NCBI RefSeq assembly: GCF_004421005.1
Contig: NZ_CP038026.1
Location: 1,736,001-1,800,000, forward strand
Source: Pseudoduganella plicata
Lineage (GTDB): Bacteria; Pseudomonadota; Gammaproteobacteria; Burkholderiales; Burkholderiaceae_D
Length of the DNA: 64,000 nt
Reading direction: 5' to 3'
Shown here: positions 12,116 to 32,616 of the stretch, piece after piece
Position numbering within the stretch: position 1 is the first letter of the stretch
How the letters are laid out: each line of letters begins with the position of its first letter
Notes under the pieces: generated by a model
Seen by the model: only the letters and a program-made list of their open reading frames with translations
What the model was told of the DNA's origin: nothing
Database searches by the model: none
Position numbers and translations under genes: made by a program

Positions 12116-13513
12116 TCAGTTCTCCCGCTCGGGCGACTTCGTTGCCGCTGCGTTTGTCGCCGCCGCCTTGTCGTCATAGGCTACCAGCTTCCACACCGTC
12201 GCCGCGCTGAACGCGGGACGTTCGCCCCGGATTTTCTGCCACCAACTCTGCGGACCCGCCATGACCAACGGCGGCAACGTCTGGCCGGCCTTGAACTTCT
12301 CGCGACGGCCGCCCTGCGGCAGCCCCGTTTCGGTCGGTTCCCACCAGCCATCCTGCGGACACCGCTTGCCCGTCGCGGCAACCGCACCCAGAGGTTCGCG
12401 TGGCGTGGGGCTTCCGGCTGCGGTCGTGCCCGGCGCAGTGGTCGGGCGAACGCGGATGCTGCTGGTGATTCTGTCCCATACCGCGACCGCTTCGTCGTCG
12501 GTCAGGCTGGGTTTCACGGCGCCGGCGGCGTTGTCGGCGACGCCGGTTTGCATCTTGATATCGGCATAGGGTTTGTAGACATCCTTGAGTACTCCCTTCA
12601 CATCCATGACGAAATCGTGAATGCCGTGTACGCCTGGCTGGTCCGGCGAACGCGACAAGGCTTCCCATCCATTCGACCACTCGTGGATCTGACGCGGACC
12701 TCTACGAAAATATTTTGTCTTCAACAAAGGATGATTTGAGCTCTCCGCCGTATGCTCTTTCTCCAGCTTCTCAAGCTGCCACTCGAGGGTGTCGCTCTCG
12801 GCGTTGTATGGATTCGGTGGCGCAATGTAGATCGACAGATGGGTGTCTGGAAATTCTTTCAGGCGGAAGCCGATGCGAACATGTTCGATCGGGGGTTCTG
12901 CATCGGCGACAGCCTTATCTCGTAGGAACGAATACTCGAGGCAGTTGCCTGGCTCCATAGGTATCTCATGCTCCTCTCTCGAGCGCAGGCGCTGAGTGAT
13001 GCTCTTTATTTCCGCAACAGTCTCCGCCAGATCGTCCCGAAGCGGCCGAGCCGAGACTACTAAGCCGTCCTCTCCCCAACGATAGTAGCCTTTGATCTGC
13101 AATCCGTTAAGTGCATCAAATGATTCCAGGCCGGTGATGATCCTTCCCGGAGGCTGTATGGAGTCTTCCTCCGTGATGAACATAGAAATATTATCGTGAT
13201 ACAAGGCTTCAGTAGCCTTTAGTTCCTTAGAAAATTCCATCGCTTCCACCATCACTGCATTCGCCCCTCCTTGGTAAAAATCAATACCAAGCACCATGGA
13301 GGCGTGCCCCCAGGCAACGATAGCGGATTCGGGAACGTCAACCATAAAACGGCCAAAACAAACCGTTTTGGTTTTTTCAAAGGCGGTCTGCAGACGGGGC
13401 GTGAGGGCGGTCATATTTGGGGCTCCATACTGTGGCGAGCGGTAGTTGCAGGCGGTAAGGCTCACGCATGAAATGGCGAGAAAACCAAAGCTAACTGATC
13501 GAATCAAATTCAT
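12116..13513 (-). CDS. Tli4-family type VI immunity lipoprotein
   Basis: A 465-residue predicted lipoprotein with the signal MNLIRSVSFGFLAISCVSLTAC, whose lipobox ends at Cys22. The body resembles Tli4-type immunity proteins, which sit in the periplasm and block a cognate phospholipase effector. The last ~85 residues, after a Thr/Ala/Pro linker, form a separate small module starting GKRCPQDGWWEPTE. The gene overlaps the upstream lipase by 23 bases, with AAGGAAG as its ribosome site inside that gene, which suggests coupled translation of toxin and protector. Base composition is lower in GC than the neighbours in its 5' half. Confidence 0.8.
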   Translation of the reverse strand: MNLIRSVSFGFLAISCVSLTACNYRSPQYGAPNMTALTPRLQTAFEKTKTVCFGRFMVDVPESAIVAWGHASMVLGIDFYQGGANAVMVEAMEFSKELKATEALYHDNISMFITEEDSIQPPGRIITGLESFDALNGLQIKGYYRWGEDGLVVSARPLRDDLAETVAEIKSITQRLRSREEHEIPMEPGNCLEYSFLRDKAVADAEPPIEHVRIGFRLKEFPDTHLSIYIAPPNPYNAESDTLEWQLEKLEKEHTAESSNHPLLKTKYFRRGPRQIHEWSNGWEALSRSPDQPGVHGIHDFVMDVKGVLKDVYKPYADIKMQTGVADNAAGAVKPSLTDDEAVAVWDRITSSIRVRPTTAPGTTAAGSPTPREPLGAVAATGKRCPQDGWWEPTETGLPQGGRREKFKAGQTLPPLVMAGPQSWWQKIRGERPAFSAATVWKLVAYDDKAAATNAAATKSPEREN

Positions 13514-15278: not shown

Positions 15279-15311
15279 GTATCGCTCTCCTTGTCGTCTC
15301 GATGCCTGCGC

Positions 15312-18062
15312 TCAGTCATCCAGGGCTTCGACGGTGTAGCGGCCGAACGGAATTGTGCTTTGAAACCGCTCCGTCAGACCGCTGCTGTCGGTACGTCCTT
15401 CGATCGTCCGGCCGTCTTCCGTCGTAATGCGATAGCGCTGGTTTTTCATCGGTTCGTCGGTACCGACCCATCGCAACACCGTTTGCTGATCGTGGTTTGC
15501 CGTGCTGGCGGGCAGCTTTACGTCCGGCAGCTCGCTGCTGCCGGGGCCCAGGTGAGCGAATTTAGAGGACTTGATCGTGTGGTCTCCACTGCTTTGCTGC
15601 GTGATGGCGCCGCCGCCCAGATCGACCTGGACGCCTTGCGCAACGAAGCGCAACTTCGGCGCCTGCAGCACGATTTCGTCGATGGCTGTCAACACGAGAC
15701 GTTTCGCCGAGGTCACTTCGATGTCACCGCCATGCGTCTGCAGTTCCAGCTTGCCGCTGGCCGCGATGAGCTTGATGCCGAGCCTGTGGGCAAACAGGCT
15801 GATGCTGTCGGACACCCGCGCCAGCAGCTTCTTGCCGACCGACAGCTGCGTGTTGCCCATGCTGACCAGATCAACCTGGGCTTGCGCACCGATCGCCACG
15901 TTGGCCTGGCTGCTCATCGCCAGACCTGCCGGCGCTGAAACCGCAACGACGGGCTTGCCGCCCTCGCCCGGTCCTTCGCGTTCAGTGTTGCTGCCGGCCT
16001 CCCATTGCTTCAGGTAACCCAGCAACTGTGCGAGACCCGTGCCGTCGGTATCGTCGGCATGATGGGTTTGCGACAACTCCGCCAATTGCTGCTGGACGCC
16101 GCGCAACGCTTCCACCAGGCCTGTCAACTCAGCCCTGTCCAGCTGTTTGCCGCCGGCCCCAGGGCGCCCCGCGGCGCTGATCAGGACGCCATGCGCGCCG
16201 CGTACCGCAACGGCCTGGTCGCTGCGCAGTTCGGCGCCCTCGCCACGCGCGTCACCCCTGCCTTCGCTGCGGGGATGCGTCAGCCAGCCCAGGTTCAGCT
16301 GGCTGTGACCGTGATCCGATGAGAGCTGGGCATTGATCTGGCCAGGGGTATCGTCCAGCCGTAGTTGATTGCAGCGGACACCCTGCACTTCCTTGCTCTT
16401 GATCCCCGCCAGGAACCGGTTCGCAGGCAGCGCGCCGGTGTGGCTGAACGCAGGCGGCGGCGCGGTACCGCCATAAACCCGCGCGACAATGATCGGCCGG
16501 TCGGGATCGCCGCCCAGGAAGTCGACAATGACCTCGTCACCGACTCGCGGCAGCGCTATCGCCCCCCAACGATCGCCGGCCCAGCTGCTGGCTACGCGTA
16601 CCCAGCCCGAGTCGCGGTCCGTATCGCTGGCGCCGGCATCTCCGGCGTGGCGGTGATCCTGTACCCTGGTGCCGGGAATTCGCACTTTGACTTCGCCATT
16701 CTCATTACAGTAGACCTCCTCGCCCGGCGGACCGACAACGATCGCGGTCTGTAATCGAGGTTGCGGCAGGTCCTTGCGCGCATCGAAAGCCGGAACGATC
16801 GGTATTCCCCTGCGGACGCAGGAAAACCAATTGGTATAGCGCATGTCGCGCTCCCGGCTGGCCTGCCGCAGGCCGTTATCGGCGGCTTCGCTGTGCCATC
16901 TGCTCAATGCAAACAGACGTTGGACGCGCTCGCTGAGCGCCTTGGGCAGATTGTTCTGCGCATCGATCTCGAGCTGGGTGATAACGAATTGGCGCTCCGC
17001 CTCCGGATGGGTATCGATCTCGGAATGGCCGGCCAGACCGATCCACTGGCCCACACGCAAAGCGCGAACGCTGCTTTCACCGTAAAAGCATTTCGACTCG
17101 AACTCGTGTCGCTGCATGCGCAGGTCGCCGAGCTTGCGGTAATGGTCGCCGTCGTCACCGGGGTGGGGCTCGTCGATCAGGTAGTCCTCCAGGCCGAGCG
17201 CGAACTGATTGCCGAGCTCACCCTGATCGATACACGATGGCGTTGCACTGGTGCGGAAACGCGCCGATGCGTGATCCCAGCTCGACCGCGTGACATTGCC
17301 GGGTTTGAGGGTACGCACCGGGTTCCAGGCTGTGACCGTGTCGTGCTCTTCCGTAGCGGCGTCCCGGTGATAGCGGATCGTGCCAGCGACGTTCTCTGCA
17401 AGGCTGCAGGCATCGTCGAACAGTACCAGCCGATGCACCGGCATGCTCGCGTCGGGCGAGTCGCTGGGCTGCCCAGGCTCGACGAACCACGCAATGCCGC
17501 GGCGCTTCCACAGCCTGCGCAGGAAATCGGCATCGGACTCGTTGTGCTGCATCGTGAATTCCCGCGCCGGATAGCTGCCGGTCACATGCGCCCAATCGAC
17601 CTCGAAGGCCCCTGCCAGCACAGCGTTGGTATCCCGCCATTCGTCGACCATAACTTTCGTGATCTCGAGTTCGTCGCAGTTGCGGAAAACGCGGGTATTG
17701 GTGCGATGCTCCATCATCGCCAGAGCGTCGCGCACCACCAGCTGATAGGTCGCCAGACCGCCATCGCTCTGCCCGGCCGCAGCCTGCGCGACGATGCCGC
17801 AGACGGCGCGAAGCTCGCCCCGATCGGTCACGAACTGCAGCTCAACCGGCGCTGCGATGAACTGTTTTAACGGCAGATCCGCACGAGGTGACACACACAA
17901 CAGCCGATATTCCAGCCCCCCGCACAAGGTTTCGGTTCCGCTCACATGCTGAACCAGCAGAACATCTTCCAAAGCCGCATTCGATTGAGACGTTTTCAGG
18001 CGGATAGGCCGATGGGCCCCGGAGAGTTCTACGATCGTCGCTGCCAGTTCCGTCAGATCCAT
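15312..18062 (-). CDS. vgrG: VgrG spike protein with C-terminal extension
   Basis: Type VI secretion spike, 916 residues from the ATG at 18062 (MDLTELAATIVELSG), chosen because AAGGAG lies 6 bases upstream; an upstream in-frame start at 18188 lacks this. N-terminal gp27-like part (roughly 1-370), gp5-like OB fold with GWVRVASSWAGDRWGAIALPRVGDEV and DPDRPIIVARVYG (about 480-560), then a DUF2345 needle extension (about 640-830). The final ~60 residues (RYRITTEDGRTIEGRTDSSG and onwards) look like a transthyretin-type beta domain, the kind that docks lipase effectors. No T6SS structural genes occur in the window, so this is an orphan VgrG island. Confidence 0.92.
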   Translation of the reverse strand: MDLTELAATIVELSGAHRPIRLKTSQSNAALEDVLLVQHVSGTETLCGGLEYRLLCVSPRADLPLKQFIAAPVELQFVTDRGELRAVCGIVAQAAAGQSDGGLATYQLVVRDALAMMEHRTNTRVFRNCDELEITKVMVDEWRDTNAVLAGAFEVDWAHVTGSYPAREFTMQHNESDADFLRRLWKRRGIAWFVEPGQPSDSPDASMPVHRLVLFDDACSLAENVAGTIRYHRDAATEEHDTVTAWNPVRTLKPGNVTRSSWDHASARFRTSATPSCIDQGELGNQFALGLEDYLIDEPHPGDDGDHYRKLGDLRMQRHEFESKCFYGESSVRALRVGQWIGLAGHSEIDTHPEAERQFVITQLEIDAQNNLPKALSERVQRLFALSRWHSEAADNGLRQASRERDMRYTNWFSCVRRGIPIVPAFDARKDLPQPRLQTAIVVGPPGEEVYCNENGEVKVRIPGTRVQDHRHAGDAGASDTDRDSGWVRVASSWAGDRWGAIALPRVGDEVIVDFLGGDPDRPIIVARVYGGTAPPPAFSHTGALPANRFLAGIKSKEVQGVRCNQLRLDDTPGQINAQLSSDHGHSQLNLGWLTHPRSEGRGDARGEGAELRSDQAVAVRGAHGVLISAAGRPGAGGKQLDRAELTGLVEALRGVQQQLAELSQTHHADDTDGTGLAQLLGYLKQWEAGSNTEREGPGEGGKPVVAVSAPAGLAMSSQANVAIGAQAQVDLVSMGNTQLSVGKKLLARVSDSISLFAHRLGIKLIAASGKLELQTHGGDIEVTSAKRLVLTAIDEIVLQAPKLRFVAQGVQVDLGGGAITQQSSGDHTIKSSKFAHLGPGSSELPDVKLPASTANHDQQTVLRWVGTDEPMKNQRYRITTEDGRTIEGRTDSSGLTERFQSTIPFGRYTVEALDD

Positions 18063-18246
18063 TGGGACTCCTTGGCGGGATCCGTCGATTGGACGGAACC
18101 GAATATATCGGCGCACAGATAATTTCCGTACGGCAATTAACGCAAGGCCTATTATGCAGATCGACAGGATGGGGATGTTGACACTCATCAGCCAGGGCCA
18201 ACGGGATGAGATACCGATTGAGATACGGGACGAGAGGCGGGGCGAT

Positions 18247-20101: not shown

Positions 20102-20122
20102 GTTTAGTAAAAGTGATTAAAC
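20102..20122. promoter_or_regulatory. 21-bp LacI-type dyad upstream of the TonB receptor
   Basis: GTTTAGT-N7-GATTAAAC variant: arms GTTTA.T and A.TAAAC with one mismatch. The same 21-bp element recurs at 28985-29005 and 29064-29084. Here it ends 23 bases before a TTGATC box. It is presumably bound by the LacI-family regulator encoded at 29238, by inference from position. Confidence 0.7.
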
Positions 20123-20145
20123 TGCGGCCCGTTTTTTCGAAGCGC

Positions 20146-20175
20146 TTGATCTTGTGTTTTTTGAAATGCAATACT
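20146..20175 (+). promoter_or_regulatory. Candidate promoter of the TonB receptor gene
   Basis: TTGATC at 20146-20151 is followed after 14 bases by ATGCAATACT (20166-20175), where TG plus AATACT looks like an extended -10. The same TTGAYC-N14/15-ATGCAA arrangement stands in front of the permease and regulator genes, at the same distance from the same dyad. The leader to the ATG at 20230 would be about 50 bases. Confidence 0.55.
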
Positions 20176-20229
20176 CGAACGGCTGAAAAAGAGGCCCGGC
20201 AGTGGCCTACATTCCAACGAGGAGACGAG

Positions 20230-22937
20230 ATGCATCCCACCAAGAGAAGCTTGATGAGCCTGGCCGTGGCCAGCGCCTGCAGCCTGTTTGCGCTGTCCGC
20301 TTTTGCCCAGGCCGGCGGCGCTGCGGCCGACCCCAATGCCACTCCCCCGCCGAAGCCCCGACCGGCGCACCGCGCAGTACACCTATATCGAGCGGCGACC
20401 AGATCCCCGAGGTCAAGGTCACGGCCACCCGGTATTCGACGTCGCTGCTGAAGACGCCGCTGGCCGTTTCCGCCTTCAGCCAGGAGCAGTTGAGCCGCAA
20501 GGGCGCGACCAGCCTGAAGGACCTGACGGGCGAGATTCCCAACGTCGTCATCCAGAGTACGGGCCTCGACTCGGCCGTGCAGATCACGATCCGCGGCATC
20601 ACGTCAACCAACTTCACGGAGACGGGCGACCCGGCCGTCGGCTTCCACGTGGACGGCATGTACTCGCCGCGGCCGCAGGGCGCACAGGCATTGATGTTCG
20701 ACGTGGACCAGGTCGAGGTGCTGCGCGGCCCGCAAGGCACCTTGTTCGGCCGCAACTCCACGGGCGGCTCCGTCAACGTCATCTCGGCCAAGCCCGACTT
20801 CTCGGGCAATTACGGCAAGGCCGAAGTCGACATCGGCAACTACCGCAAGAAACAGGTGACGCTGGTGCAGAACGTCAAGGTGAACGACCGGCTGGCCCTG
20901 CGCGGCACGTTCATGAAAGTCGAACGCGACGGCTACGCCAACCAGATGCGCGACCTGTCGGAAGCGAACGCGCCGCAACTGGGCTGGGTCCCGGACGGCA
21001 TCCCGGACGTGGACCAGCGCTTCAATAAACCGATCGGCAAGGACAAGTACTACACCAACCAGGACCAGTGGGCCGCGCGCCTGTCGGCACTGTACAAGGT
21101 GAACAACGACGTGACGCTGAAAGCGGCCTACGAACACTTCCAGGACGACGGTGCCGGCGGCGCGCCGTTCCGCGACTGCGAGGCTTCCGCCGGCACGCGC
21201 TACCAGTGCGCACCGGGCACGGGCAAGTGGGACCTGCTGGTCAACGTGCCGGGCCAGGTGGACATGCAGATCCGCACGCTGCGTACCGGCCTGTCGTGGA
21301 CCATCAACCCGACGACGACCTTCGACTACACGTTCCAGGTCGCGGACCAGAAGCGCTCCGAGATCACCGACGACGACATGGGCATGCAGCATGCGGCGCC
21401 GTTCCAGATCAATGGCGCGTATCCCAACACGCCTGAAGGCAACTGGGGCACGTGGCCGCTGACGGATTCGTTCCACCGCACGCTGTCGTCGCGCTACCTG
21501 TCGACGGTGCACGAGGCGCAGCTGAAGCAGACACTGGGCAATGTGCAGTATGTCGCGGGCCTGTTCTGGATGCACGAGCGTAACCGCATCGACTACGAAC
21601 AGACCCACACGATCCAGAAGCCCTACGGCGACGTAGGCTCGGTGCTGTACCACCAGCCCAACCGCCAGGTCGATGCGAAAGCCGTGTTCGCGCAGGCCGA
21701 CTGGAAGTTCATGCCGTCGTGGACCGGCACGTTGGGTGCGCGCTACAGCATCGACAGCAAGGAGGACAAGGGCGGCGAAGTGTATGGCGCCAACTGGAAG
21801 GGCGACCCGGCCTACTACAATGGCCTGTACAGCCAGGGCACGCCGGGTACGCCGGGCTTTCGCGTCCACAACGGCACCGACCTGACGGACGCAATGGGCG
21901 GCAGCGTCGCGGCCTACCACCTGTACGGCGCACCGACGTCGAACGACCACAAGGAAACGTGGCGCAAGGTGACGTGGCGCGTGGGCCTGCAGAAGCAGAT
22001 GACGCCGAACCAGATGGCCTATGCCTCCGTCTCGACGGGCTACAAGGCCGGCGGCTTCGCCGACAAGACGGACAGCTGCAACTACCATATGTGCGCCGAC
22101 GGCAAGCCGGGTGTCGTCACGTTCCTGCCGTACGGTCCGGAACAGGTGACGAACTTCGAACTGGGCTACAAGGGCAAGTTCCTGGACAACCGGCTGTCGC
22201 TGTCGGCCACGGCGTTCTGGATGAAGTACAAGGACATGCAGCTGACGGGCACCTACTTCATCAACCAGATCATCCCGGATAACGGCCTGCCCTGCCCGAC
22301 CGACCAGCCCAAGTGCGACGTGTACGAAGCCTGGCGCACGATCAACGTGGGCAAGGTGGACATCCCGGGCCTGGAACTGGAATGGGACTACCGGCCATGG
22401 CGCGGCGCCCGCTTCGGCGGCGGCATCGCCTACATCAACACGGACGTGCACGACTTCCGCGAATTCTCGGATGACTATCAGTGCGACGTGCGCACGGAAC
22501 TGGGCCTGCCACCCTGCCCGCCGATCTACAACGGGCCGGAAAAGGAACTGCAGGGCCGCCGCCTGTACAACATCGACGGAAACCACCTGCCGAACACGCC
22601 GAAGTTCCAGGTCAACCTGAACTTCTCGCAGGAGTTCTCGCTGCCGGGCGGGTTCCGCATCACGCCGTACGTGAAGGTGAACTGGCGCGACAAGGCCTAC
22701 TTCGACCTGCGCAACTCGGACTTCGGCACCGTCGGCCGCTTCCAGAAAGCCTACGCGATGACGGATGCGTCGGTGCGCCTCGATGCGCCGAGCGACAAGT
22801 GGCACGCGGAGCTGTACGTGCGCAATGTGGCGGACAAGCACGCCGCGCAGAACCGGGAGTCCGTGTTCGGCGGCTTCATGAAGGCTTACTACGTCGAGCC
22901 GCGCATGTTCGGTATTCGCGTGGGTGGCGAGTATTGA
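20230..22937 (+). CDS. TonB-dependent outer-membrane receptor, frame interrupted near the signal peptide
   Basis: Outer-membrane transporter, probably for mannan oligosaccharides. A good start with GAGGAGACGAG before ATG at 20230 opens a signal peptide (MHPTKRSLMSLAVASACSLF, cleavage after AFAQA), but that frame ends at 20451. The main barrel frame starts in a different phase around EAPTGAPRSTPISSGD and runs to 22937. One missing C in the C5 run at 20344-20348 would join them into about 902 residues. The plug includes VTATRYSTSLLKTPLAVSAF and VDQVEVLRGPQGTLFGRNST; the C-terminus RIGVRVGGEY-like ending is normal for a barrel. Possible meanings are a sequencing error, a pseudogene, or variable expression through the C run. 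Confidence 0.85.
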
Positions 22938-22995: not shown

Positions 22996-24054
22996 TTACC
23001 ACCCCATCACCTCCCGCAACTGCGGCACCAGGTCGTCGGCCATGCGCGCATGCTGCTCCCGCGTCGGATGCGCATCGGCCGCGTCGCCAGGATAGTGCCG
23101 CGAGACGACGCGCGAGACCCATGCATCGGCCACCCGCCGGACCGTCTCGTCGAGGTACGCGCGCAGTGCCGCCTTCTTCTCGCCATCCAGGATCGCCCCT
23201 TCCGTTAGCACGATGCGCGCCTGCGGATGATCGCGCCGCAACGTCCGCACCAGCCTCACGTACTCGCTGACGTAAGCCTCGCGCTCCGGTAACCCCTGAT
23301 TGAAATCGTTGGTGCCGATGGCGCTGACGATCAGGTCCGGCGCATAGCGCCGTTGATCCCAGCCTTCCGGCCGGCCCGGATCGGCAATGGCCAGCTCGTA
23401 TAGCCGTCCCAGATTGAACTCGTCCGTCCTGCCGTCCCAGCTGCGCACGAGGCCGCGGCCGCCGTGGCAGACAAGCTGCACCTGCCCGCCCAGCGCAGCA
23501 CCGGCCAGCATGCCGTACGAGACGCGCGGATTCCACCAGACGGGCTGCTTCGGCCCGGGCGGCGTACGTTCCAGCGCTTCGCCGCAGGTGACGGAGTCGC
23601 CCAGGAACAGCAGCCGGCGCGCCGGCAGCGCGGGTGGCGTGACGAAGCCGCCGTCGGTGGCAAAGCGCGTCAGCGTGACCGTGCCGTGCCACGTCTCGGA
23701 GCGATGAAGTACCTGCGCCGTGTGCACACCGGGCGGCAAGACATCGGCCAGCACATACCGCCGTGCCACCGGGTCCAGGTGCAACGTCCGCACGGCGCCA
23801 TCGACAACGACGTCCAGGTAGCTCCTGACGCCCGTGCTGGCGGCATCCATCGCAAGCGACGTGCCCTCGAAGCGCACGAAGAAGCTGACGCCGGGATAGG
23901 CGAAACGTACGGCGCCTGCGTCCGCGTCGACGGTGCGCCCCATCCGTACGATCCTCGCGTCGCCCGCGGACATTGATTCGGCCCCGTGAACGAGGCCGGA
24001 GAAACAAAAAAACGCGGCCAGGGCCGCGTTCATCGGATGCCTTATCGCTCGCAT
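22996..24054 (-). CDS. SGNH esterase, CE2-like two-domain acetylesterase
   Basis: 352 residues from the ATG at 24054, chosen because AGGA lies 8 bases upstream; the ATG at 24063 would add three residues. A signal peptide (MRAIRHPMNAALAAFFCFSG) is followed by a ~110-residue beta domain and an SGNH domain with FLGDSVTCGE (catalytic Ser block I), IGTNDFNQG (block III) and a terminal HPTREQH (His block V). N-terminal beta domain plus GDSVTCG is the pattern of carbohydrate esterase family 2. It is the last gene of the minus-strand permease-mannanase operon, so deacetylation of mannan is a reasonable job. Confidence 0.8.
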   Translation of the reverse strand: MRAIRHPMNAALAAFFCFSGLVHGAESMSAGDARIVRMGRTVDADAGAVRFAYPGVSFFVRFEGTSLAMDAASTGVRSYLDVVVDGAVRTLHLDPVARRYVLADVLPPGVHTAQVLHRSETWHGTVTLTRFATDGGFVTPPALPARRLLFLGDSVTCGEALERTPPGPKQPVWWNPRVSYGMLAGAALGGQVQLVCHGGRGLVRSWDGRTDEFNLGRLYELAIADPGRPEGWDQRRYAPDLIVSAIGTNDFNQGLPEREAYVSEYVRLVRTLRRDHPQARIVLTEGAILDGEKKAALRAYLDETVRRVADAWVSRVVSRHYPGDAADAHPTREQHARMADDLVPQLREVMGW

Positions 24055-24065
24055 CGTTTTCATCC

Positions 24066-24809
24066 TCACTGTTTGATCAGGCGGTCGATGTCGGGCCGCA
24101 TGGCGTCGCCCCAGATCCTGTAGCCTTCCTCCGTGAGATGCAGGTAGTCGGGCATGATCCGCGGCGAGATCGTGCCGTCCGCCTGGATGAATTTGCGGCC
24201 ATAGTCGCGGAAGAACACATGCTTGCCGTCGTCCAGCTTTGCCACGTCGCGATTGACCTTGACGACGTTCAGGCGGCGGGGGTGGTCGGGATTGGGTTCC
24301 ACTGGCAGCACGGCATTGAGCAGGATCTTCGCATCCGGATAAATCTGGCGCAGCGACGACACCACCGAGGCGATGCCGCGATAGACCTGGTCCGGCCCTT
24401 CGCCGCACAGGCCGAAGTTGTTGGTACCGATCAGCAGCACGACGACTTTCGGGCGCAGCCTGTCCATGCCGCCGTTCTGCAGGCGCCACAGCACATTGCC
24501 CGTGTGGTCGCCCCCGATGCCGAAATTCGCGGCTTTATAGTTGCCGAAGTGGCTGTCCCACTCGCTCCTGGGCCATCCTTCCGTGATCGAGTCGCCCAGG
24601 AACAGCACGTCGACATCGCCCTTGGCCGCCAGCGCGGTCTTGTCCTTGTTGATCCCGTTCCATCGCTCGATCGACATCCACGGGAACTCCACGCTGCGCG
24701 GTTCCACGTTGGTGGCGCACTGGCGCACCTGGCCCGGCACCTGATCCTGCGCACCCGCCGCAGCGGCGGCGCACAGCAACGCCAGCGCCGTCATCGTCTT
24801 CATCCGCAT
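24066..24809 (-). CDS. SGNH/GDSL esterase, single-domain
   Basis: 247 residues from the ATG at 24809, with GGAG upstream. It has the signal peptide MRMKTMTALALLCAAAAAGA and an SGNH fold closely like PAF-acetylhydrolase beta/gamma and related sugar acetylesterases: LFLGDSITEGWP (Ser), NFGIGGDHTGNVLWRL (Gly block), LLIGTNNFG (Asn) and DYLHLTEEGY (Asp-x-x-His). It is 11 bases from the CE2-like gene. The two esterases share only the core motifs and so are not recent duplicates. Deacetylation of galactoglucomannan oligosaccharides is inferred. Confidence 0.8.
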   Translation of the reverse strand: MRMKTMTALALLCAAAAAGAQDQVPGQVRQCATNVEPRSVEFPWMSIERWNGINKDKTALAAKGDVDVLFLGDSITEGWPRSEWDSHFGNYKAANFGIGGDHTGNVLWRLQNGGMDRLRPKVVVLLIGTNNFGLCGEGPDQVYRGIASVVSSLRQIYPDAKILLNAVLPVEPNPDHPRRLNVVKVNRDVAKLDDGKHVFFRDYGRKFIQADGTISPRIMPDYLHLTEEGYRIWGDAMRPDIDRLIKQ

Positions 24810-24974: not shown

Positions 24975-26189
24975 TCAGGCGCCTTCCTGCGGCGTCAGGC
25001 GCAGCATCGTCACGCCATGCGCCGGCAGTTTCAGGGCCAACGGCTTCTTCGTGTCGCCCGTCCTCTGCTGCCACAGGTCGGACCAGCGGAATGCCGTCTT
25101 CTTCAGGTCCGCCGAACGCTTGCTGAGGTCATCGCTGAGCGGCTGCTTGTTCCAGTCATAGGCGCGTTCCAGCGTACGCTCGCCCCGGTTCAGGAACAGC
25201 ACGGCCCAGTCGTTGCCTGCCAGGGGCTTGATCCACACTTCCAGCGGCCCGTCCGTCAGCATGCGCAGCGCCTGCACGCCCAGCTTGTCCTGGTTCACTG
25301 CGATGACGTCCTTGTTCGTCAGGATCTTGCGCACGGACTCGGGCATGCTGCGCAGGTCGTTGCCCGAGATGAGCGGCGACGCCATCATCGACCACAGCGA
25401 GAAGTGCGACCGCTCTTCGTCCGGCGTGAGGCCATTACCCACTTCCAGCATATCGAGGTCGTTCCAGTGGCCCGGCCCCGCGTACTTGCGCAGCGCCAGC
25501 GACTTGTCGACGATCTTCATCACGCCGAACGTGGACCACGATCCCAGCGACACTTCACAATCCCAGCAGGCGTAGATGTCGCCCGTGGTCCGCCAGGAAT
25601 GGCCGACGTTGGGTGCCCAGTCCCAGGGCTTGTTGTCGCCCCATTCGCAGATCGACAGCAGGATGGGCCGGCCGGCCGCGCGCAACGCGTCGCGCATCGT
25701 CGTGTAGGCGCCTTCCGCGTTCAGCCCCTTCGTATCGCACCAGTCGTACTTGACGTAGTCCACGCCCCAGGCGGCGTACGTGCGCGCGTCCTGGTATTCG
25801 TGACCGCGGCTGCCGGGACGCCCGCCGCAGGTGGTGGCGCCTGCGTCCGAATACAGACCAAGTTTCAATCCGCGCGCGTGGACGTAGTCCGCCAGGGCCT
25901 TGATTCCGGACGGGAAGCGCGCAGGGTCGGCCTGGATGGTGCCGTCCTTGTCGCGCTGGCCGTGCCAGCAGTCGTCGATATTGACGTACCGGTAGCCGGC
26001 GTCCTTCATGCCCAGCCTGACCATCGCATCGGCCGTTTCGCGGATCAGTTCTTCGTTGATCTCGCAGCCGAACTTGTTCCAGCTGTTCCAGCCCATCTGG
26101 GGCGTGTCGGCCAGGCCTTCGAATTTCTGCGCGTGTGCCGGGCTGACAAGGACGGCCATCATGGCTGCGGCAATGAGTGACTTCTTCAT
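24975..26189 (-). CDS. GH27 alpha-galactosidase, secreted
   Basis: Removes alpha-1,6-linked galactose from galactomannan. 404 residues from the ATG at 26189 (MKKSLIAAAMMAVLVSPAHA signal peptide). Family 27 landmarks are TPQMGWNSWNKFGC, YVNIDDCW, LGLYSDAG, the nucleophile Asp149 in YVKYDW, the acid/base Asp204 in RTTGDIYACW, and GHWNDLDMLEVGN. A ~90-residue C-terminal beta domain follows. The start ATG overlaps the GH5 stop codon as ATGA (26186-26189), so the two hydrolases are translationally coupled. Confidence 0.95.
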   Translation of the reverse strand: MKKSLIAAAMMAVLVSPAHAQKFEGLADTPQMGWNSWNKFGCEINEELIRETADAMVRLGMKDAGYRYVNIDDCWHGQRDKDGTIQADPARFPSGIKALADYVHARGLKLGLYSDAGATTCGGRPGSRGHEYQDARTYAAWGVDYVKYDWCDTKGLNAEGAYTTMRDALRAAGRPILLSICEWGDNKPWDWAPNVGHSWRTTGDIYACWDCEVSLGSWSTFGVMKIVDKSLALRKYAGPGHWNDLDMLEVGNGLTPDEERSHFSLWSMMASPLISGNDLRSMPESVRKILTNKDVIAVNQDKLGVQALRMLTDGPLEVWIKPLAGNDWAVLFLNRGERTLERAYDWNKQPLSDDLSKRSADLKKTAFRWSDLWQQRTGDTKKPLALKLPAHGVTMLRLTPQEGA

Positions 26190-27505
26190 TTGCGCTCCAA
26201 CCCTTTCAGTCTGGCGGCCGTTTCGCGGATCAGCGCGATCGTGCTGGCATCCGTGTCGAACACGGAGTACAGACCCTGTTCCTCCTGCGGCGGATCGCCC
26301 ATCAGGTCGTTGCCCTCCTTCCACCAGTAGTCGGGATTGGCGGCGCGGCCGGCGCCGCCCCAGGCCCAGAAGTTGAAGCCGGCAATCGGGTCGCCCTTGG
26401 CGGCGCGCGTCGTGATGACGTTGAACACTTCACCGTAGAAGCGGTCGCGCACCGTCGTTCCCGCCTTGATGTCGAACGAAGCGCCGTCGCGGTCCATGCC
26501 GAATTCCTCCAGCACGATAGGCTTGCCCAGCTTTTTCGCATAGTCGATGTGCACGTTCAGATAGTGGCTGCTCTTTTCCATCGCGCCTTCCCACGTGGCC
26601 GCGACGTTCTTCGAATCGATCCAGCCCCAGTTCTTCGGCCACAGGTGGTACGTCAGGTAGTCGATGTGCTTTGTCTGGTGCGCCTTGACGAACAGGTCGG
26701 CGTCCTGGGCGGAGCCGGCCAGGCCTTCGCTGCCACTGCTGACGAGATGGTTTTTATCCAGGCTGTGGATGTAGGCGGCCGTGTCGGCGATCCATTTGAC
26801 GTACACCGCCTTTTCCTCGGCAGTGGCCTTGCCGTTGCCCGGACGCGGCTCGTTGGCAAGCTGCCACGACATCACGGTCGGATCGTCCGCATAGCGCTTG
26901 CCAGTGACCGTGTTGACCCGTTCGACGATCGTGCGGATCACGTTGCGGTACTCCTGCTGGGCCTTGTCGTTGCGGTAGAACCGCGCCGTCTTCGCCATGT
27001 AGTCGTCGTAGTCCTTCGTGATGTTCGGATCCAGCGCCTTGGTGCCCTCGAACCAGTTCAGGTACTGCGTCATGCCACCCGACCATTGCCAGAAATTGTT
27101 CAGGTAGATCACCACCGTCATGTCGCGTTTTGCCAGCTCGGCCACGAGGAAGTCCAGGCCGGCCAGCAGGTTTTCATCGTACCGTCCTGGCGCGGCCGTC
27201 GTGGCGGGGCGTACTGCGCTCGGCATGTCCGTCTTCTCCGAGACGGCCAGCACGCGCACGTTGTTGATGCCGGCCGCCTTCATCGTGTCCAGTTCCTTCA
27301 GCAGGCGTGCGCGGTTGCCGACATTGCTGGCTGCACCGAGGTAGGCGCCATACCAGAAATTGGCGCCGGCGATGTAGTAGCGCTGGCCACCCTTGGCGAA
27401 GTGGGTCTTGTCGACCTTTACAAAATTGTTGGTGGCGGCTGCCGCGTCCATCGGCACGGCGTGCAGCATCATCAGGCTTGCGACCAGCTTGATCATGGTT
27501 TTCAT
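26186..27505 (-). CDS. GH5 endo-beta-mannanase (subfamily 7-like), secreted
   Basis: Cleaves the beta-1,4-mannan backbone. 439 residues with a signal sequence (MKTMIKLVASLMMLHAVPMD). The TIM barrel shows the substrate block FYIAGANFWYG-like YYIAGANFWYG near residue 45, acid/base Glu219 in WQLANEPRPGNG and nucleophile Glu334 in VLEEFGMDRDG. It resembles the GH5_7 mannanases that act on (galacto)mannan. No carbohydrate-binding module is attached. It follows the permease gene by 72 bases and overlaps the GH27 gene by 4. Confidence 0.93.
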   Translation of the reverse strand: MKTMIKLVASLMMLHAVPMDAAAATNNFVKVDKTHFAKGGQRYYIAGANFWYGAYLGAASNVGNRARLLKELDTMKAAGINNVRVLAVSEKTDMPSAVRPATTAAPGRYDENLLAGLDFLVAELAKRDMTVVIYLNNFWQWSGGMTQYLNWFEGTKALDPNITKDYDDYMAKTARFYRNDKAQQEYRNVIRTIVERVNTVTGKRYADDPTVMSWQLANEPRPGNGKATAEEKAVYVKWIADTAAYIHSLDKNHLVSSGSEGLAGSAQDADLFVKAHQTKHIDYLTYHLWPKNWGWIDSKNVAATWEGAMEKSSHYLNVHIDYAKKLGKPIVLEEFGMDRDGASFDIKAGTTVRDRFYGEVFNVITTRAAKGDPIAGFNFWAWGGAGRAANPDYWWKEGNDLMGDPPQEEQGLYSVFDTDASTIALIRETAARLKGLERK

Positions 27506-27577: not shown

Positions 27578-28885
27578 CTAAGCCGCGCTGACGTTATCGG
27601 CGTACATCGCGGCATAGCGGATGCCGAAGTACAGGATGAACAGATAGCAGGCTGCCGGCACGAGGAACGACAGCTGCAGGCCGACGGTATCGGCCATGAA
27701 GCCCTGCGCGAAAGGCACGATGGCGCCGCCGACGATGGCCATGCACAGCACGCCGGAACCCTGCCCCGTCTGCGCGCCCAGCTTGTGCAGCGCCATGCTG
27801 AAGATCGTGGGGAACATGATGGAATTGAACAGGCCCACTGCGATCAGGGCCCACATGGCGACCTGGCCTTGCCCCAGCACGGCGATCAGCACCAGCACGA
27901 TAGTGGCGGCGGCGTTGAACGCCAGTGCCTTGCCGGGGCTGACCCGGCGCATCACGACAAAGCCGACGAAGCGGCCGACCATCGCACCGCCCCAATAGTA
28001 GCTGACGTATTTCGCCGCGTCGCCATGCGACAGGCCGGCGATGCGCGCTTCGCCCAGGAAGTTGATCAGGAAGCTGCCGATGGAGACTTCCGCGCCGACG
28101 TACAGAAAGATGCCAATGGCGCCCAGCAGCAGATGGCGGTGCTTCAACACCGACGGCTTGCCCTCGCCTGCCAGCTCGGGCAGACCGTCGTCGTGCGTGA
28201 TCGTGGGCAGGCGCACAACGGCGAACAGCACGGCCAGCGCCAGCAGCGCACCGGCAAGCGCCAGGTATGGGCCCTGCACGGCGGCGGCTTCCTGTGCCCG
28301 GTGGGCCAGCAACTCGGTGCCGGCCAGTTTCGCCGCATCGACGATGGCCGGGCCCTGCGTGAGGATCAGCATGCCACCCAGCGCCGGCGCGATGGTCGTG
28401 CCGAGGGAATTGAACGCCTGCGTCAGCGTCAGGCGGCTCGACGCCTGGGCCGGCGGCCCGAGGACGGTCACGAACGGATTGGCGGCGACCTGCAGCACCG
28501 TGATGCCCGCGGCCAGGACGAAAAACGCGAACAGGAACAGCCCGTAGCCGCTCATCGCCGCGGGATAGAACAGTGCACAGCCCACGGCGGCGACCACCAG
28601 GCCTGTGACGGCGCCGCGCTTGTAGCCGATGCGGCGGATCAGCATGCCCGCCGGCAGCGACACGATGAAATAGGCGCCGAAGAAACAGAACTGCACGAGC
28701 ATGGCCTGCACGTAGTTCAGGGTGTAGATGGCCTTCAGGTGAGGGATCAGAACGTCGTTCATCGACGTCAGCAGGCCCCACATGAAGAACAGGATCGTGA
28801 TGACGGTCAAAGGGAAAGCATGCGACTGCTGTGCGCTGGCGATCGGCGCATACGGGGCGTGCGCCGCCGGGCTGGATTGGTCCAT
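27578..28885 (-). CDS. FHS-family sugar MFS permease (FucP/GluP/NagP type)
   Basis: Inner-membrane proton/sugar symporter, 435 residues from the ATG at 28885 ([17 protein letters not shown]), chosen because of CAGGAG just upstream. The 12-helix protein has the family block [19 protein letters not shown] in helix 1 and [24 protein letters not shown] around helix 2 and loop 2-3. Related permeases carry fucose, glucose/mannose, galactose or N-acetylglucosamine. Here mannose or a manno-oligosaccharide is inferred from the linked genes. It is the first gene of the five-gene minus-strand operon. Confidence 0.9.
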
Positions 28886-28930: not shown

Positions 28931-29005
28931 ATTTTGCATGCGCCCCGCCCGGCCGGTCAAACGCTGCCGCTTTTTTGGGCGCAAGTTTAGCGGCGTTCAC
29001 TAAAC
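28931..29005 (-). promoter_or_regulatory. Permease-operon promoter with 21-bp dyad
   Basis: Read on the minus strand: dyad GTTTAGTGAACGCC-type element (28985-29005, arms GTTTAG and CTAAAC), then 24 bases, TTGACC (28955-28960), 15 bases, and ATGCAAAAT (28931-28939). The arrangement matches those at 20102-20175 and 29064-29138. The dyad centre would lie near -70, upstream of the -35 box rather than over it. Confidence 0.6.
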
Positions 29006-29010
29006 ACGCT

Positions 29011-29043
29011 CAGCATGCGCCTCGCGTCGCGGGGCGCATGCTG
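29011..29043. repeat. 11-bp hairpin between the two divergent operators
   Basis: CAGCATGCGCC at 29011-29021 pairs perfectly with GGCGCATGCTG at 29033-29043 around an 11-base CG-rich loop. It lies almost exactly midway between the dyads at 28985 and 29064. It could be a REP-like element, or a structure that isolates or links the two divergent promoters. Confidence 0.7.
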
Positions 29044-29063
29044 CCGCCGGGCGGGCCGCCGGT

Positions 29064-29138
29064 GTTTAGTAAATCCGACTAAACTTTTCCGCAAACGGCC
29101 TTCCACGTTTGACCGCGGCCGCGCGGCTATGCAAGACT
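29064..29138 (+). promoter_or_regulatory. Regulator-operon promoter with 21-bp dyad
   Basis: Perfect dyad GTTTAGT-N7-ACTAAAC at 29064-29084, then 24 bases, TTGACC (29109-29114), 14 bases and ATGCAAGACT (29129-29138). It is the best copy of the element and faces the LacI-type gene, so autoregulation is likely. Confidence 0.65.
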
Positions 29139-29237: not shown

Positions 29238-30260
29238 ATGACGGCCCCTGGCGGCGTCACGATCCGCGATATCGCCCGTGCCGCCGGCGTTTCGGCCGGT
29301 ACCATTTCGCGCGCGCTGAAGAATGAACCGGGCCTGACGGAATCGACGCGCCAGATGGTGCTCAGCACCGCGCGCGAACTGGGCTACGATTTCTGCAAAT
29401 TGCGGCCGAAACGGCTGCGCCGCCTCACCTTCCTGCTGCATCGCCAGCACAACACGGCGTCGAGCAGCCCTTTTTACTCGCCCGTGCTGCACGGCGCCGA
29501 GGAAGCCTGCCGCAAGCAAGGCATCGTGCTGTCGTTCATGGCCGTGGGCCCCGCCGACGGGCTGGCGGACCAGCTGCGCATCCATGCGCCGGACGCCATC
29601 GTCTGCGCCGGCTTTTTCGAGCCCGAGCTGCTGACGGCGCTGCGCGGCACGGGCAAGCCCATCGTGCTGATCGACATGAAACTTCGCGGCTACAGCTCCG
29701 TCAATCCGGACAATATGATGGGCGGCTACCTGGCAACGAAGCACCTGATCGACCGGGGCCGCGAACGCGTGGGCTTCATCTCCGGTTCACTGAGCCATTA
29801 CAGCATCCGCGAGCGGGCGCGCGGCTATCGCCAGGCCCTGTACGAGGCCGGCATTCTGGCCGACCCGCGGCTGGAAGCCGGCCTGCCCGATGGCGTGGAC
29901 CTGGAAACGGGCGCATGGGAAGCGACAGACACCTTGCTGGCCCTGCCGAAACCGCCGGACGCGCTGTTCTGCTACAACGACAGTGCGGCGCTGGTGGCGA
30001 TGCGCTGCTGCCTGGCGAAAGGGCTGAAGGTGCCGCACGATATTTCGATCGTCGGCTTCGACGACATTTCAACGGCCGTGCTGGGCCACCGGCCGCTGAC
30101 AACGCTGCGCATCAACAAGAAGGAGCTGGGCGCGATGGGTGTCGCGATGCTGCTGGACGGCCGCATCAACGAAGTGGAGGAAAGAATTTCACCCGTGGAG
30201 CTGGTCATCCGCGCCAGCACCGTATGCCAGGACGCGCCGCGACGACGAAGCACGCTTTGA
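29238..30260 (+). CDS. LacI-family transcriptional regulator
   Basis: 340 residues from the ATG at 29238 (MTAPGGVTIRDIARAAGVS), which has GGGGAGGA upstream. The open frame extends further 5' but that part has no family resemblance. The N-terminal helix-turn-helix VTIRDIARAAGVSAGTISRAL is followed by the hinge region and a periplasmic-binding-protein-like domain with VGFDDISTAVLGHRPLTTLRI. It heads the plus-strand operon and lies next to two of three copies of a 21-bp dyad, so it is the likely local regulator of mannan use. The ligand is unknown. Confidence 0.92.
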   Translation: MTAPGGVTIRDIARAAGVSAGTISRALKNEPGLTESTRQMVLSTARELGYDFCKLRPKRLRRLTFLLHRQHNTASSSPFYSPVLHGAEEACRKQGIVLSFMAVGPADGLADQLRIHAPDAIVCAGFFEPELLTALRGTGKPIVLIDMKLRGYSSVNPDNMMGGYLATKHLIDRGRERVGFISGSLSHYSIRERARGYRQALYEAGILADPRLEAGLPDGVDLETGAWEATDTLLALPKPPDALFCYNDSAALVAMRCCLAKGLKVPHDISIVGFDDISTAVLGHRPLTTLRINKKELGAMGVAMLLDGRINEVEERISPVELVIRASTVCQDAPRRRSTL

Positions 30261-30309: not shown

Positions 30310-30528
30310 ATGCCTGAAAGGCGGAAGCGATCAGGCAGGCAGCGGATGACGAAGGCAGCAGATCAGAAAGCAGCAGATCAAGAGAGCAGCAGATCAGACG
30401 CTGCAAATCGAGAAAGCAGTAGAACGGAAGGCAGTAGACCAACGCAGGAGCCCGTGACAGCGGGCGCCACTCACTCAAGAACGGACGATTCATGTTACCA
30501 GATTTTCATGCACGCGAAACGCTGCTGA
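30310..30528 (+). CDS. Possible 72-residue leader ORF overlapping the AGE gene
   Basis: ATG at 30310 is preceded by GGCGGAGGAAC, one of the strongest ribosome sites in the region. The encoded peptide (MPERRKRSGRQRMTKAADQK at its start) is hydrophilic and low in complexity, rich in Ala, Asp, Gln, Ser and Arg, and includes the tandem repeat at 30355-30399. It ends at 30528, 37 bases inside the isomerase gene in another frame. No family is recognised. It may be a coupled leader that helps start translation of the weakly initiated isomerase, or chance. Confidence 0.35.
   Translation: MPERRKRSGRQRMTKAADQKAADQESSRSDAANRESSRTEGSRPTQEPVTAGATHSRTDDSCYQIFMHAKRC
30355..30399 (+). repeat. Three imperfect 15-16 bp tandem repeats
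   Basis: GCAGCAGATCAGAAA, GCAGCAGATCAAGAGA and GCAGCAGATCAGAC follow each other directly in the gap between the regulator and isomerase genes, with a decayed further copy downstream (GAAAGCAGTAGAAC). The tract is purine-rich on the mRNA strand. Copy number could vary by slippage. Confidence 0.75.
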
Positions 30529-31697
30529 GGCATATCCGCCACACCCGCCAGTTCTACGATCCGCGCTCGGTGGATCCGACCGGCGGCTTCCATCACTTCT
30601 ATAAAGACGACGGCACCGTCTACGATGCGCACACGCGCCACCTCGTCAGCAGCACGCGCTTCATCTTCAACTACGCGATGGCTTACCGCCAGTTCGGCGA
30701 GGAAGCGGACCGCGGGCGGCTGCGCCACGGCCTGGCCTTCCTGCGCGACGTGCACCGCAATGCCGCCACGGGCGGCTACGCATGGGAACTGCAGTGGCAG
30801 GACGGGCGCAAGACCGTTACCGACAGAACCAATCACTGCTACGGCCTGGCCTTCGTGCTGCTGGCATATTCGCATGCGCTGATGGCCGGCGAAACGAGTG
30901 CGCGCGAATACGTGACCGAAACGTTCGACCTGATGGAGCAGCGGTTCTGGGAGCCGCAACATGGCCTGTATGCCGACGAGGCGAGCGCCGACTGGGTCGT
31001 ATCGGCCTACCGCGGCCAAAACGCCAACATGCATGCGTGCGAAGCGCTGATCGCCGCATACGAGGCCACGGGCGAAACGCGCTACCTGCACCGCGCCGAG
31101 ACATTGGCGCACAATATCGCCGTGCGCCAGGCCGGCCTGGCCGACGACCTGGTGTGGGAGCACTACCGCGCCGACTGGTCGGTGGACCCGGACTACAACC
31201 GCCACGACAGCACCAATATCTTCCGTCCCTGGGGCTACCAGCCAGGCCACCTGACGGAATGGGCCAAGCTCCTGCTGCTGCTCGAACGCCATGCGGCGTC
31301 CCTGGCGGGGCCGTCCGGCTGGCTGCTGCCGCGCGCCGTGCAGTTCTTCGACGCGGCGCTCGACAAGGCATGGGACAAGGAACACGGCGGCATCCACTAC
31401 GGCTTCGGCCCGGACGGCACCATCTGCGACGCCCACAAGTATTTCTGGGTGCAGGCGGAAAGCCTCGCGGCCGCGGCGCTGCTGGGCGCGCGCACGGGCG
31501 AGGCGCGTTTCTGGCACTGGTACGACCGGCTGTGGGCCTACAGCTGGGAGCATTTCGTCGACCATACCCATGGCGCCTGGTACCGCATCCTGGGCGCCGA
31601 CAACCGCAAGCTGACCGACGAGAAGAGCCCCGCCGGCAAGGTGGACTACCACACGATGGGCGCCTGCTACGAAGTGCTCAAGGTTCTGAAGGACTGA
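30492..31697 (+). CDS. AGE-family isomerase, probable D-mannose isomerase
   Basis: 401-residue member of the N-acylglucosamine 2-epimerase family, an (alpha/alpha)6 barrel. Family landmarks include VSSTRFIFNYAMAY, RTNHCYGLAFVLLAYSHAL, the block RPWGYQPGHLTEWAKLLLLL and the C-terminal HKYFWVQAES and DYHTMGACYE, which contain the His/Glu residues expected at the active site. Related YihS-type enzymes convert mannose to fructose. With a mannanase upstream and a PfkB kinase one base downstream, mannose isomerase fits better than cellobiose epimerase. The ribosome site is weak, which may explain the leader ORF in front. Confidence 0.88.
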   Translation: MLPDFHARETLLRHIRHTRQFYDPRSVDPTGGFHHFYKDDGTVYDAHTRHLVSSTRFIFNYAMAYRQFGEEADRGRLRHGLAFLRDVHRNAATGGYAWELQWQDGRKTVTDRTNHCYGLAFVLLAYSHALMAGETSAREYVTETFDLMEQRFWEPQHGLYADEASADWVVSAYRGQNANMHACEALIAAYEATGETRYLHRAETLAHNIAVRQAGLADDLVWEHYRADWSVDPDYNRHDSTNIFRPWGYQPGHLTEWAKLLLLLERHAASLAGPSGWLLPRAVQFFDAALDKAWDKEHGGIHYGFGPDGTICDAHKYFWVQAESLAAAALLGARTGEARFWHWYDRLWAYSWEHFVDHTHGAWYRILGADNRKLTDEKSPAGKVDYHTMGACYEVLKVLKD

Positions 31698-31698
31698 C

Positions 31699-32616
31699 AT
31701 GGCCCACTTCCCGGAATTCGTGTCGGCCGGCGAGGCGCTGACGGACCTGATCGTGACGGACCCGCAGCAGCAGCACTGGCTCAGCGTGACAGGCGGCTCG
31801 ACGTGGAACGTGGCGCGCACGATGGCGGCGCTCGGCCTGCCCAGCGCGTTCGCCGGCGCCATCAGCCGCGACGTGTTCGGCGATGCGCTGTGGCGCGCCA
31901 CCGAAGCGGCGGGCCTGGACACGCGCTTCACGCAACGTCTCGACAAGGCGCCGCTCCTCGCGGTCGTGCACCGGCTCGACCCGCCCACCTACTTCTTCAT
32001 CGGCGACGACAGCGCCGACCTGCACTTCGACGCCGCCCTGCTGCCCGACGGCTGGCGCACGCACTGCCGCTGGCTGCACTTCGGCGGCATCAGCCTGGCG
32101 CGCGAACCGCTGGCCTCGAAGCTGGTTGCGCTGGCGCGCGAAGCGAAAGCGGCCGGCATCGGCATCAGCTTCGATCCGAACTACCGCCGGCTGATGGACG
32201 AGCGCTACGATCCCACCTTGCGGGCGATGACGGCGCTGGCCGATGTCGTCAAGGTGTCAGAAGAGGACCTCGTCGGCCTGTTCCGGCATGACGACACGGT
32301 CGCGTCGTTCGCGCAGCTGCGCGAGTTCAATCCGGCGGCACGCTTCCTGTACACGAAGGGTGCCGAAGGAGCGTCGCTGCATATCGGCGCCGGGAGCTGG
32401 CAGGTTGCCGCGCCCGCCGTGCAGGTGCAGGACACCGTCGGCGCGGGCGATGCCAGCATCGCGGCCTTCGTCCACAGCCTGTTGCGCGAGGCTGGCCGTA
32501 CGCCCTTGCAGCATTTGCAGTGTGCCGTGGCGGCAGGGGCTGCGGCTTGCCTGGGCGCCGGGGCCACGCCGCCTTCGCTGGCGCAGATTGCGGAGTTGAT
32601 GGCAGCGATGGACTGA
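31699..32616 (+). CDS. PfkB-family carbohydrate kinase, probable fructokinase
   Basis: 305-residue ribokinase-like sugar kinase. N-terminal FVSAGEALTDLIV and the Gly block TGGSTWNVARTMAALG bind sugar, and the PfkB signature QDTVGAGDAS near residues 244-253 holds the catalytic base Asp251. Phosphorylating the fructose made by the preceding isomerase would feed fructose-6-phosphate to glycolysis. The start codon ATG follows the isomerase stop by one base. Sugar specificity is inferred only from context. Confidence 0.88.
   Translation: MAHFPEFVSAGEALTDLIVTDPQQQHWLSVTGGSTWNVARTMAALGLPSAFAGAISRDVFGDALWRATEAAGLDTRFTQRLDKAPLLAVVHRLDPPTYFFIGDDSADLHFDAALLPDGWRTHCRWLHFGGISLAREPLASKLVALAREAKAAGIGISFDPNYRRLMDERYDPTLRAMTALADVVKVSEEDLVGLFRHDDTVASFAQLREFNPAARFLYTKGAEGASLHIGAGSWQVAAPAVQVQDTVGAGDASIAAFVHSLLREAGRTPLQHLQCAVAAGAAACLGAGATPPSLAQIAELMAAMD

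Follow-up and report, generated by a model that had tools for sequence, protein, structure and literature searches.

Repression by promoter blocking is the role for which LacI-type proteins are best known, and the locus described here raises the question of what such a protein would do from a site lying well upstream of the −35 hexamer. The window, by which we mean the whole stretch of 64,000 nucleotides of Pseudoduganella plicata DNA that was analysed, contains a divergent pair of inverted repeats, or dyads, in the region that separates a permease gene from one of lacI type, with an outward gap of 24 bp from each dyad to a TTGACC hexamer. A protein bound at −80 to −60 would leave the −35 and −10 elements uncovered, so that contact with RNA polymerase fits this placement better than simple steric blocking.

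Layout of the dyads and promoters

The earlier note had described dyads at 29064–29084 and 28985–29005, each followed by 24 bp, TTGACC, 15 or 14 bp, and ATGCAA, and had assigned the genes on either side to a LacI-type regulator and a sugar permease. The layout is as described, the distance from TTGACC to ATGCAA being 14 bp for the lacI promoter and 15 bp for that of the permease, and the Pfam and NCBIfam matches agree with both gene assignments (Table 1). A third dyad, 9 kb away, is followed by 23 bp, TTGATC, 14 bp, ATGCAATACT and then the ORF of a TonB-dependent receptor.

These three are the only dyad matches in the window at up to three mismatches, against 0.28 expected, and as many were reached in one of 100 shuffles. 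No further operator was found in the window either at this threshold or with spacers of 4–11 bp at up to two mismatches. The whole genome (5,887,622 bases) contains 18 matches at up to three mismatches, the window's three having none or one and the other 15 having three; no place elsewhere in these 5.9 Mb comes within one mismatch. The possibility that the dyad is a general repeat was rejected on this whole-genome count and on the scans of other genomes.

Table 1. Predicted genes, operator dyads and promoter elements of the locus, in window coordinates
Feature	Coordinates	Strand	Remarks
Third operator dyad (predicted), GTTTAGT-N7-ATTAAAC	20102..20122	.	1 mismatch
T6 step between −35 and dyad, receptor promoter	20132..20137	+	function inferred
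−35 hexamer TTGATC, receptor promoter, 23 bp past dyad	20146..20151	+	relatives with equal gap
−10 region ATGCAATACT, receptor promoter: CAATAC (spacer 17) or AATACT (spacer 18)	20166..20175	+	
TonB-dependent receptor ORF, start codon uncertain	20202..22937	+	Pfam Plug, TonB_dep_Rec_b-barrel
CE2-type acetylxylan esterase/glucomannan deacetylase	22996..24489	-	Pfam CE2_N; NCBIfam AxeC2 above cut-off
alpha-Galactosidase	24975..26324	-	Pfam Melibiase_2; no NCBIfam match
Close relative of exo-mannosidase Man5A	26186..27505	-	phmmer to 1uuq Man5A, E 4.3e-168
MFS sugar permease (GluP/FucP type)	27578..28885	-	Pfam MFS_1 (longer ORF); NCBIfam gluP subfamily above cut-off
−10 region ATGCAAAAT, permease promoter: CAAAAT, spacer 18	28931..28939	-	promoter scan
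−35 hexamer TTGACC, permease promoter	28955..28960	-	
A6 step between −35 and dyad, permease promoter	28971..28976	-	function inferred
Permease-side operator dyad (predicted), GTTTAGT-N7-GCTAAAC read on minus strand	28985..29005	.	1 mismatch
lacI-side operator dyad (predicted), GTTTAGT-N7-ACTAAAC	29064..29084	.	0 mismatches; kept in orthologues
AAA step, lacI promoter, 14–16 bp before −35 (about −50), possible alpha-CTD docking site	29093..29095	+	function inferred
−35 hexamer TTGACC, lacI promoter	29109..29114	+	gap conserved
−10 region ATGCAAGACT, lacI promoter: CAAGAC (spacer 17) or AAGACT (spacer 18)	29129..29138	+	TATAAA sister promoters
LacI-family regulator, 340 aa	29238..30260	+	Pfam LacI 1.5e-11, Peripla_BP_3 3.9e-30
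AGE-superfamily epimerase, probably mannose isomerase	30492..31697	+	Pfam GlcNAc_2-epim; NCBIfam ManIsomPseudo best, below cut-off
PfkB-family sugar kinase, probably fructokinase	31699..32616	+	Pfam PfkB; NCBIfam fructokinase best, below cut-off

The regulator and its gene neighbourhood

The regulator combines a LacI-type HTH with a periplasmic-binding-like domain, which places it in the LacI family; no NCBIfam equivalog scored above its cut-off. The canonical operator of the family, typically though not universally, is an even palindrome with a central CG, which the 21-bp dyads of the window are not. The accessible part of one report puts at 4% the share of LacI-family regulators whose palindromes are non-canonical, measuring 17, 19 or 21 nt (PMC4052901), and a 21-bp dyad is thus compatible with membership of the family. 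To judge from the matches in Table 1, the neighbouring genes look like a galactomannan/glucomannan locus. The alpha-galactosidase is presumably of the GH27 type.

In the receptor gene, the ATG at 20230 opens a signal-peptide-like sequence (MHPTKRSLMSLAVASAC...) that resembles the N-termini of the relatives' receptors. This start is out of frame with the long receptor ORF, which suggests a frameshift or a misreading at the 5′ end of the gene.

Co-occurrence of the dyad and the regulator

Orthologues of the regulator (at least 78% identity) are present in 44 of the 74 genomes of the genus. The composite, a dyad followed after 10–40 bp by TTGAYC, was found in 41 of these 44 and in one of the remaining 30 (Fisher 4e-16, in a test that treats genomes as independent, which related genomes are not); the gap in that one genome, G062, is 32 bp. 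On the lacI side, all three misses (G006, G035 and G038) have a 22-bp dyad with a spacer of 8 and a gap of 24 bp; the strict dyad pattern misses 22-bp dyads. G060, counted among the 30 with an orthologue at 72%, also has a 22-bp dyad, with TTGACC 23 bp further on. Outside the genus, a LacI orthologue of 74–81% identity is present in all 23 dyad-bearing genomes of the family sample described below, as against none of 24 controls, hand-picked among dyad-less genomes of two genera, in which identity nowhere exceeded 63%. We conclude from the co-occurrence computed inside and outside the genus that the dyad goes with this LacI regulator. The best explanation is that it is the operator of the protein encoded at 29238–30260, whose binding we infer.

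Both 21-bp and 22-bp dyads (spacer 7 or 8) are seen at orthologous positions (L151, L161, L172, L165, L167–L171, L173–L176 and others). Spacer flexibility inside one orthologous group is called rare in the portion of the literature report available to us (PMC4052901).

A fixed distance between dyad and −35

The union of the genus scan (74 genomes) and a family sample (392 genomes drawn from a larger group and containing 55 of the 74) contains 125 places, spread over 65 genomes, where a dyad is paired with TTGAYC. Among the gaps of 10–40 bp allowed, 23 bp occurs in 46 places and 24 bp in 74, making 120 of the 125; the rest measure 22, 27, 30, 30 and 32 bp. The scan of related genomes for randomly placed dyads that the earlier note had proposed has thus returned non-random positions, and the site stands, as in a class I promoter, at a fixed phase upstream of the −35. 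Within the family sample the composite occurs in 53 of the 392 genomes and four of the 44 genera. In a class sample of 370 genomes (completeness at least 90), four genomes matched besides the window's own, with one match each at gaps of 16, 18, 33 and 37 bp.

Comparison of 51 orthologous loci (at least 77% identity; named loci or the window's own, partly from the same genomes as the G-numbered set) revealed both composites in 44, the lacI-side composite only in three, the other only in two, and neither in two (L182 and L185). When the −35 is relaxed, the lacI-side dyad is found 23 bp before TTGCCA in L177 and 22 bp before TTGCAA in L180. Across the 44 loci, each dyad is 23–24 bp away from its own −35, and the centre of the dyad lies 34–35.5 bp from the −35, the 21- and 22-bp variants included. 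The centres of the two dyads, meanwhile, are 28 bp apart in six loci, 76–80.5 bp apart in 33, and 42, 91, 96.5, 100 or 133 bp apart in the others. Because the first distance is kept while the second ranges from 28 to 133 bp, we conclude that each dyad serves its own promoter and that a loop joining the pair is unlikely.

Core promoter register and the A/T step

ATGCAA, the last element of the layout given in the earlier note, is not itself the −10 hexamer. Sister promoters with the same dyad gap have TATAAA 17–18 bp after the −35 hexamer; they mark the location of the −10, so that ATGCAA in the window straddles it. The −10 hexamers of the window start at or just after the C of ATGCAA, resulting in spacers of 17–18 bp. 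An alternative-sigma or short-spacer promoter was rejected, the 14–15 bp to ATGCAA forming part of this 17–18-bp spacer. In a promoter scan the sole promoter-like match was the permease promoter (TTGACC, 18, CAAAAT), and the lacI promoter failed the scan; the register is putatively that of sigma-70. The −10 elements of the permease and receptor promoters match the consensus at four of six positions and are not very weak, and that of the lacI promoter stays poor in the orthologues (two or three of six). The start positions, predicted and counted by hand, fall near 29144/29145 on the plus strand for lacI, 28924 on the minus strand for the permease and 20181/20182 on the plus strand for the receptor, and the dyad centre is accordingly predicted at −69 to −71.

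Of 58 non-redundant gaps between dyad and −35, 72% and 76% have A or T at the positions 15 and 14 bp upstream of the hexamer, as against 21–24% at 20 to 17 bp before it, and A alone accounts for 60% and 57% at −15 and −14 relative to the hexamer in 58 non-redundant promoters. None of 5000 within-row permutations reached the observed level, the test being confined to rows with a gap of 23 or 24 and less than 65% identity, treated as independent. The step falls at about −50, just downstream of the dyad, and is compatible with possible docking of the alpha-CTD of RNA polymerase. The alpha-CTD occupies about this position in class I complexes whose site is near −71.

Further promoters, paralogues and exceptions

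A set of 28 further dyad loci was assembled from the matches listed outside the lacI region, minus the window's own (L055–L079), with L080, L081 (ATGCA nearby) and L082 added. Each of these 4-kb loci has one dyad, among the matches listed, and a −35-like TTG hexamer (at least three of six) is found at a gap of 23 bp in 22 of the 56 flanks, the next most frequent gap being 29 bp with eight. Promoters with TTGATC and AATACT occur in the set. The AATACT class, which is receptor-type, amounts to 13 distinct promoters, all with a gap of 23 bp, one of which (L130) precedes a lacI-type gene; Pfam confirmed a receptor in the window and in L073. L055, L058 and L081 are receptor-type promoters with TTGAGC or TTGAGG, 17 bp and TATAAA, and a receptor plug was identified by Pfam in L055. 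Seven loci (L061, L064, L066, L068, L072, L077 and L078) combine the dyad with AGCGACA, TTGTTC at a gap of 23 bp and a TTAATGTTA-like sequence, and precede genes of the tryptophan-halogenase Pfam family, as seen in a Pfam run on L061. In Massilia-type genomes the module is present also at an unlinked GH2-type gene (Pfam on L118).

Among distant relatives of the regulator (L186–L215, 30 loci, 50–61% identity), 12 loci have GTTTA(C/G)TAAAA-N-GCTAAAA followed by 23–24 bp, TTGACG, 18 bp and TATAAA; no such dyad was found in 17 of the 30, and L206 has a dyad without the composite.

The distance is not uniform in every case. L057, L071 and L074 have TTGACG at 7 bp from the dyad, L057 additionally having TTGCCG at 24 bp and an ORF that gave no Pfam match, and L065, L079 and L082 have nothing −35-like at 22–24 bp. 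In L182 and L185, two of the 51 orthologous loci, a degenerate dyad lies shortly before the start codon with no TTG hexamer at 18–29 bp, a placement that looks more like repression.

Just upstream of the lacI-side dyad, 12 of the 51 orthologous loci (L171, L173–L176, L178, L179 and L181–L185) have a second LacI-type palindrome of even length, GAAATCGRTTTC, together with an AT-rich stretch. This palindrome may belong to another regulator, and the window is without GAAANCGNTTTC.

Mode of action

The computed geometry and its conservation suggest the following scheme. A dimer of the regulator would bind the dyad, its centre some 70 bp before each predicted start and on a fixed helix face, from where the A/T step at about −50 could seat an alpha-CTD of RNA polymerase. 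A sigma-70-type core would follow, consisting of TTGAYC, a spacer of 17–18 bp and an imperfect −10. The regulator would respond to a sugar derived from mannan or mannose, and the products switched on would be the outer-membrane receptor, the permease (perhaps with the genes behind it) and the regulator itself.

Keeping to a single strict distance at many promoters is more usual among activators. The single distance, fixed phase, A/T step and poor lacI −10 together point to contact with RNA polymerase, most likely for activation. Where the earlier note had held that an upstream operator fits activation or looping, polymerase contact draws support from the fixed phase, and looping finds no support in the 28–133 bp between dyads. 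On balance we think it probable, with some reserve, that a LacI-family dimer at about −70 makes contact with RNA polymerase and that its most likely role is class-I-type activation of the mannan genes and of its own gene. We advance more tentatively the stronger proposal that the protein, local and sugar-specific, acts on its targets, itself included, as an obligate class-I activator. The module involved would be composite and rigid, made up of the 21/22-bp dyad, the A/T step for the alpha-CTD and the −35, and would be shared with paralogues and across four Oxalobacteraceae genera.

A dimer at −70 might instead repress through contact: until released by sugar, it would keep the open complex from forming, in the manner of GalR bound to OE at galP1. 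Most known local LacI-type regulators are repressors. The cores of the same-gap paralogues are near-consensus (TTGACG, 18, TATAAA) and those of L055, L058 and L081 are also strong; such cores would need an activator less, and these promoters therefore count against activation. In the available text on GalR, the protein bound at −60.5 represses P1, on the same face as RNA polymerase, and activates P2, on the other face, acting through RNA polymerase (PMC4693257); position therefore does not give the sign, and −70 is about one turn further than −60.5. Against a contact repressor stand the lacI −10, which stays poor in the orthologues, the strictness of the single distance, more usual for activators, and the window itself, in which no further operator with a spacer of 4–11 bp was found at up to two mismatches. 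We judge contact repression rather unlikely, but it deserves more weight than the other alternatives. One of these, for which we see a slim chance, is a dual regulator that activates TTGAYC promoters and represses others having a downstream dyad, perhaps those of L182 and L185 or the Massilia-type upstream promoter-like stretch. The dyads of L182 and L185, near the start codon and without a −35 at the usual distance, would suit it, as would GAAATCGRTTTC and the AT-rich stretch in 12 of 51 loci, but that stretch is only a putative promoter and GAAANCGNTTTC is absent from the window.

Looping, in which the divergent dyads would be joined to each other or to the third and both promoters repressed, has in its favour that LacI-family proteins can loop (GalR, in the accessible part of PMC4693257), that both dyads share one intergenic region, and that their separation is 76–80.5 bp in 33 of 44 loci. 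In the other 11 loci, however, it is 28, 42, 91, 96.5, 100 or 133 bp; the 28 further loci have a single dyad each, among the matches listed; and three orthologous loci keep the lacI-side composite only. A search of the window at up to three mismatches found no second operator downstream of a start, as a GalR-type loop has. With no conserved distance or phase between operators in the 44 loci, looping between the divergent dyads was rejected, and we consider it highly improbable. Least probable of all is an anti-activator resembling CytR, acting at −70 beside or between CRP sites. CytR too sits upstream near −70, and CRP-like matches (one or two mismatches) occur in 13 of 51 orthologous upstream regions of 420 bp, but the other 38 have none, and the recurrent matches, near the lacI start codon (−37, six loci) or at about −372 (four loci), are away from the dyad and −35. 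This arrangement was rejected since CRP-like matches do not flank the dyad.

Relation to known systems

The earlier note knew of no description of such an arrangement. Upstream LacI-family operators in CcpA, GalR and AraQ/MalR1, as presented in the accessible parts of three reports (PMC3463425, PMC4693257, PMC6882875), mean that the arrangement belongs to a known kind, of which a local regulator with a rigid module is a variant. Among the matches listed in the open-licence literature, none dealt with this regulator or with such an arrangement in Oxalobacteraceae.

CcpA, of the LacI/GalR family, as a rule activates from sites upstream of the −35 in a manner dependent on helix face; the same text gives exceptions, lev being repressed from an upstream site and the study's own activated genes having sites at +88, −103 and +30 (PMC3463425). 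One CcpA site is placed 14 bp upstream of the −35 (PMC6882875). At ackA, pta and ilvB, CcpA is likewise a LacI-family protein bound upstream of the −35 and activating (PMC3463425, PMC6882875), but it is global, has a phosphoprotein co-regulator and works from various distances, whereas the window regulator is local with one distance of 23–24 bp. GalR at gal OE is likewise an upstream LacI-family dimer, described in the part available as acting via the RNA polymerase alpha-CTD (PMC4693257), as the window regulator would. GalR differs in having a second operator inside galE and looping with HU; for the window regulator no second site was found, and the centre is at about −70, not −60.5.

The sites of AraQ/MalR1 in Bifidobacterium lie 15–16 or 33–35 bp upstream of the −35, in the excerpt available (PMC6882875). 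They are LacI-type operators too, read as activating and spaced in helix steps (PMC6882875). For AraQ, activation was predicted from position, and the predicted activated genes were not significantly changed in the araQ mutant (PMC6882875). AraQ/MalR1 palindromes are of 20 bp at those two distances, as compared with 21/22-bp dyads at 23–24 bp here. Cra/FruR, of the same family with a different operator, is global, activates from an upstream position and has sites that are not at one fixed distance. It activates some genes and represses others, as stated in the part of the report available (PMC4052901). Class I CRP promoters, in the material available, likewise have an upstream site (−61.5) and an alpha-CTD contact of the type that the window regulator would make, but the protein family and operator are unrelated. 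Class I CRP sites occur also at −71.5.

An operator at a fixed distance appears unusual for a local LacI-type regulator such as this one of soil bacteria. With nearly all operators at one distance, these loci amount to a natural series of promoters, having weak and strong cores in equal geometry, on which the action of a LacI-family dimer on RNA polymerase, activation as against contact repression, can be tested. The dyad/−35 module is, moreover, a ready predictor of mannan regulons in Duganella, Pseudoduganella and Massilia.

Additional observations

At several of the paralogous loci L186–L212, an inverted repeat resembling AAACGC...GCGTTTATTAAAC lies between the promoter and the start codon of the paralogous lacI gene; it may form an RNA hairpin or serve as a second site. 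Elsewhere in the window, positions 12116–18188 encode parts of a type VI secretion system: a VgrG-type protein, a possible effector (PGAP1-like domain) and an immunity protein of the Tli4 family.
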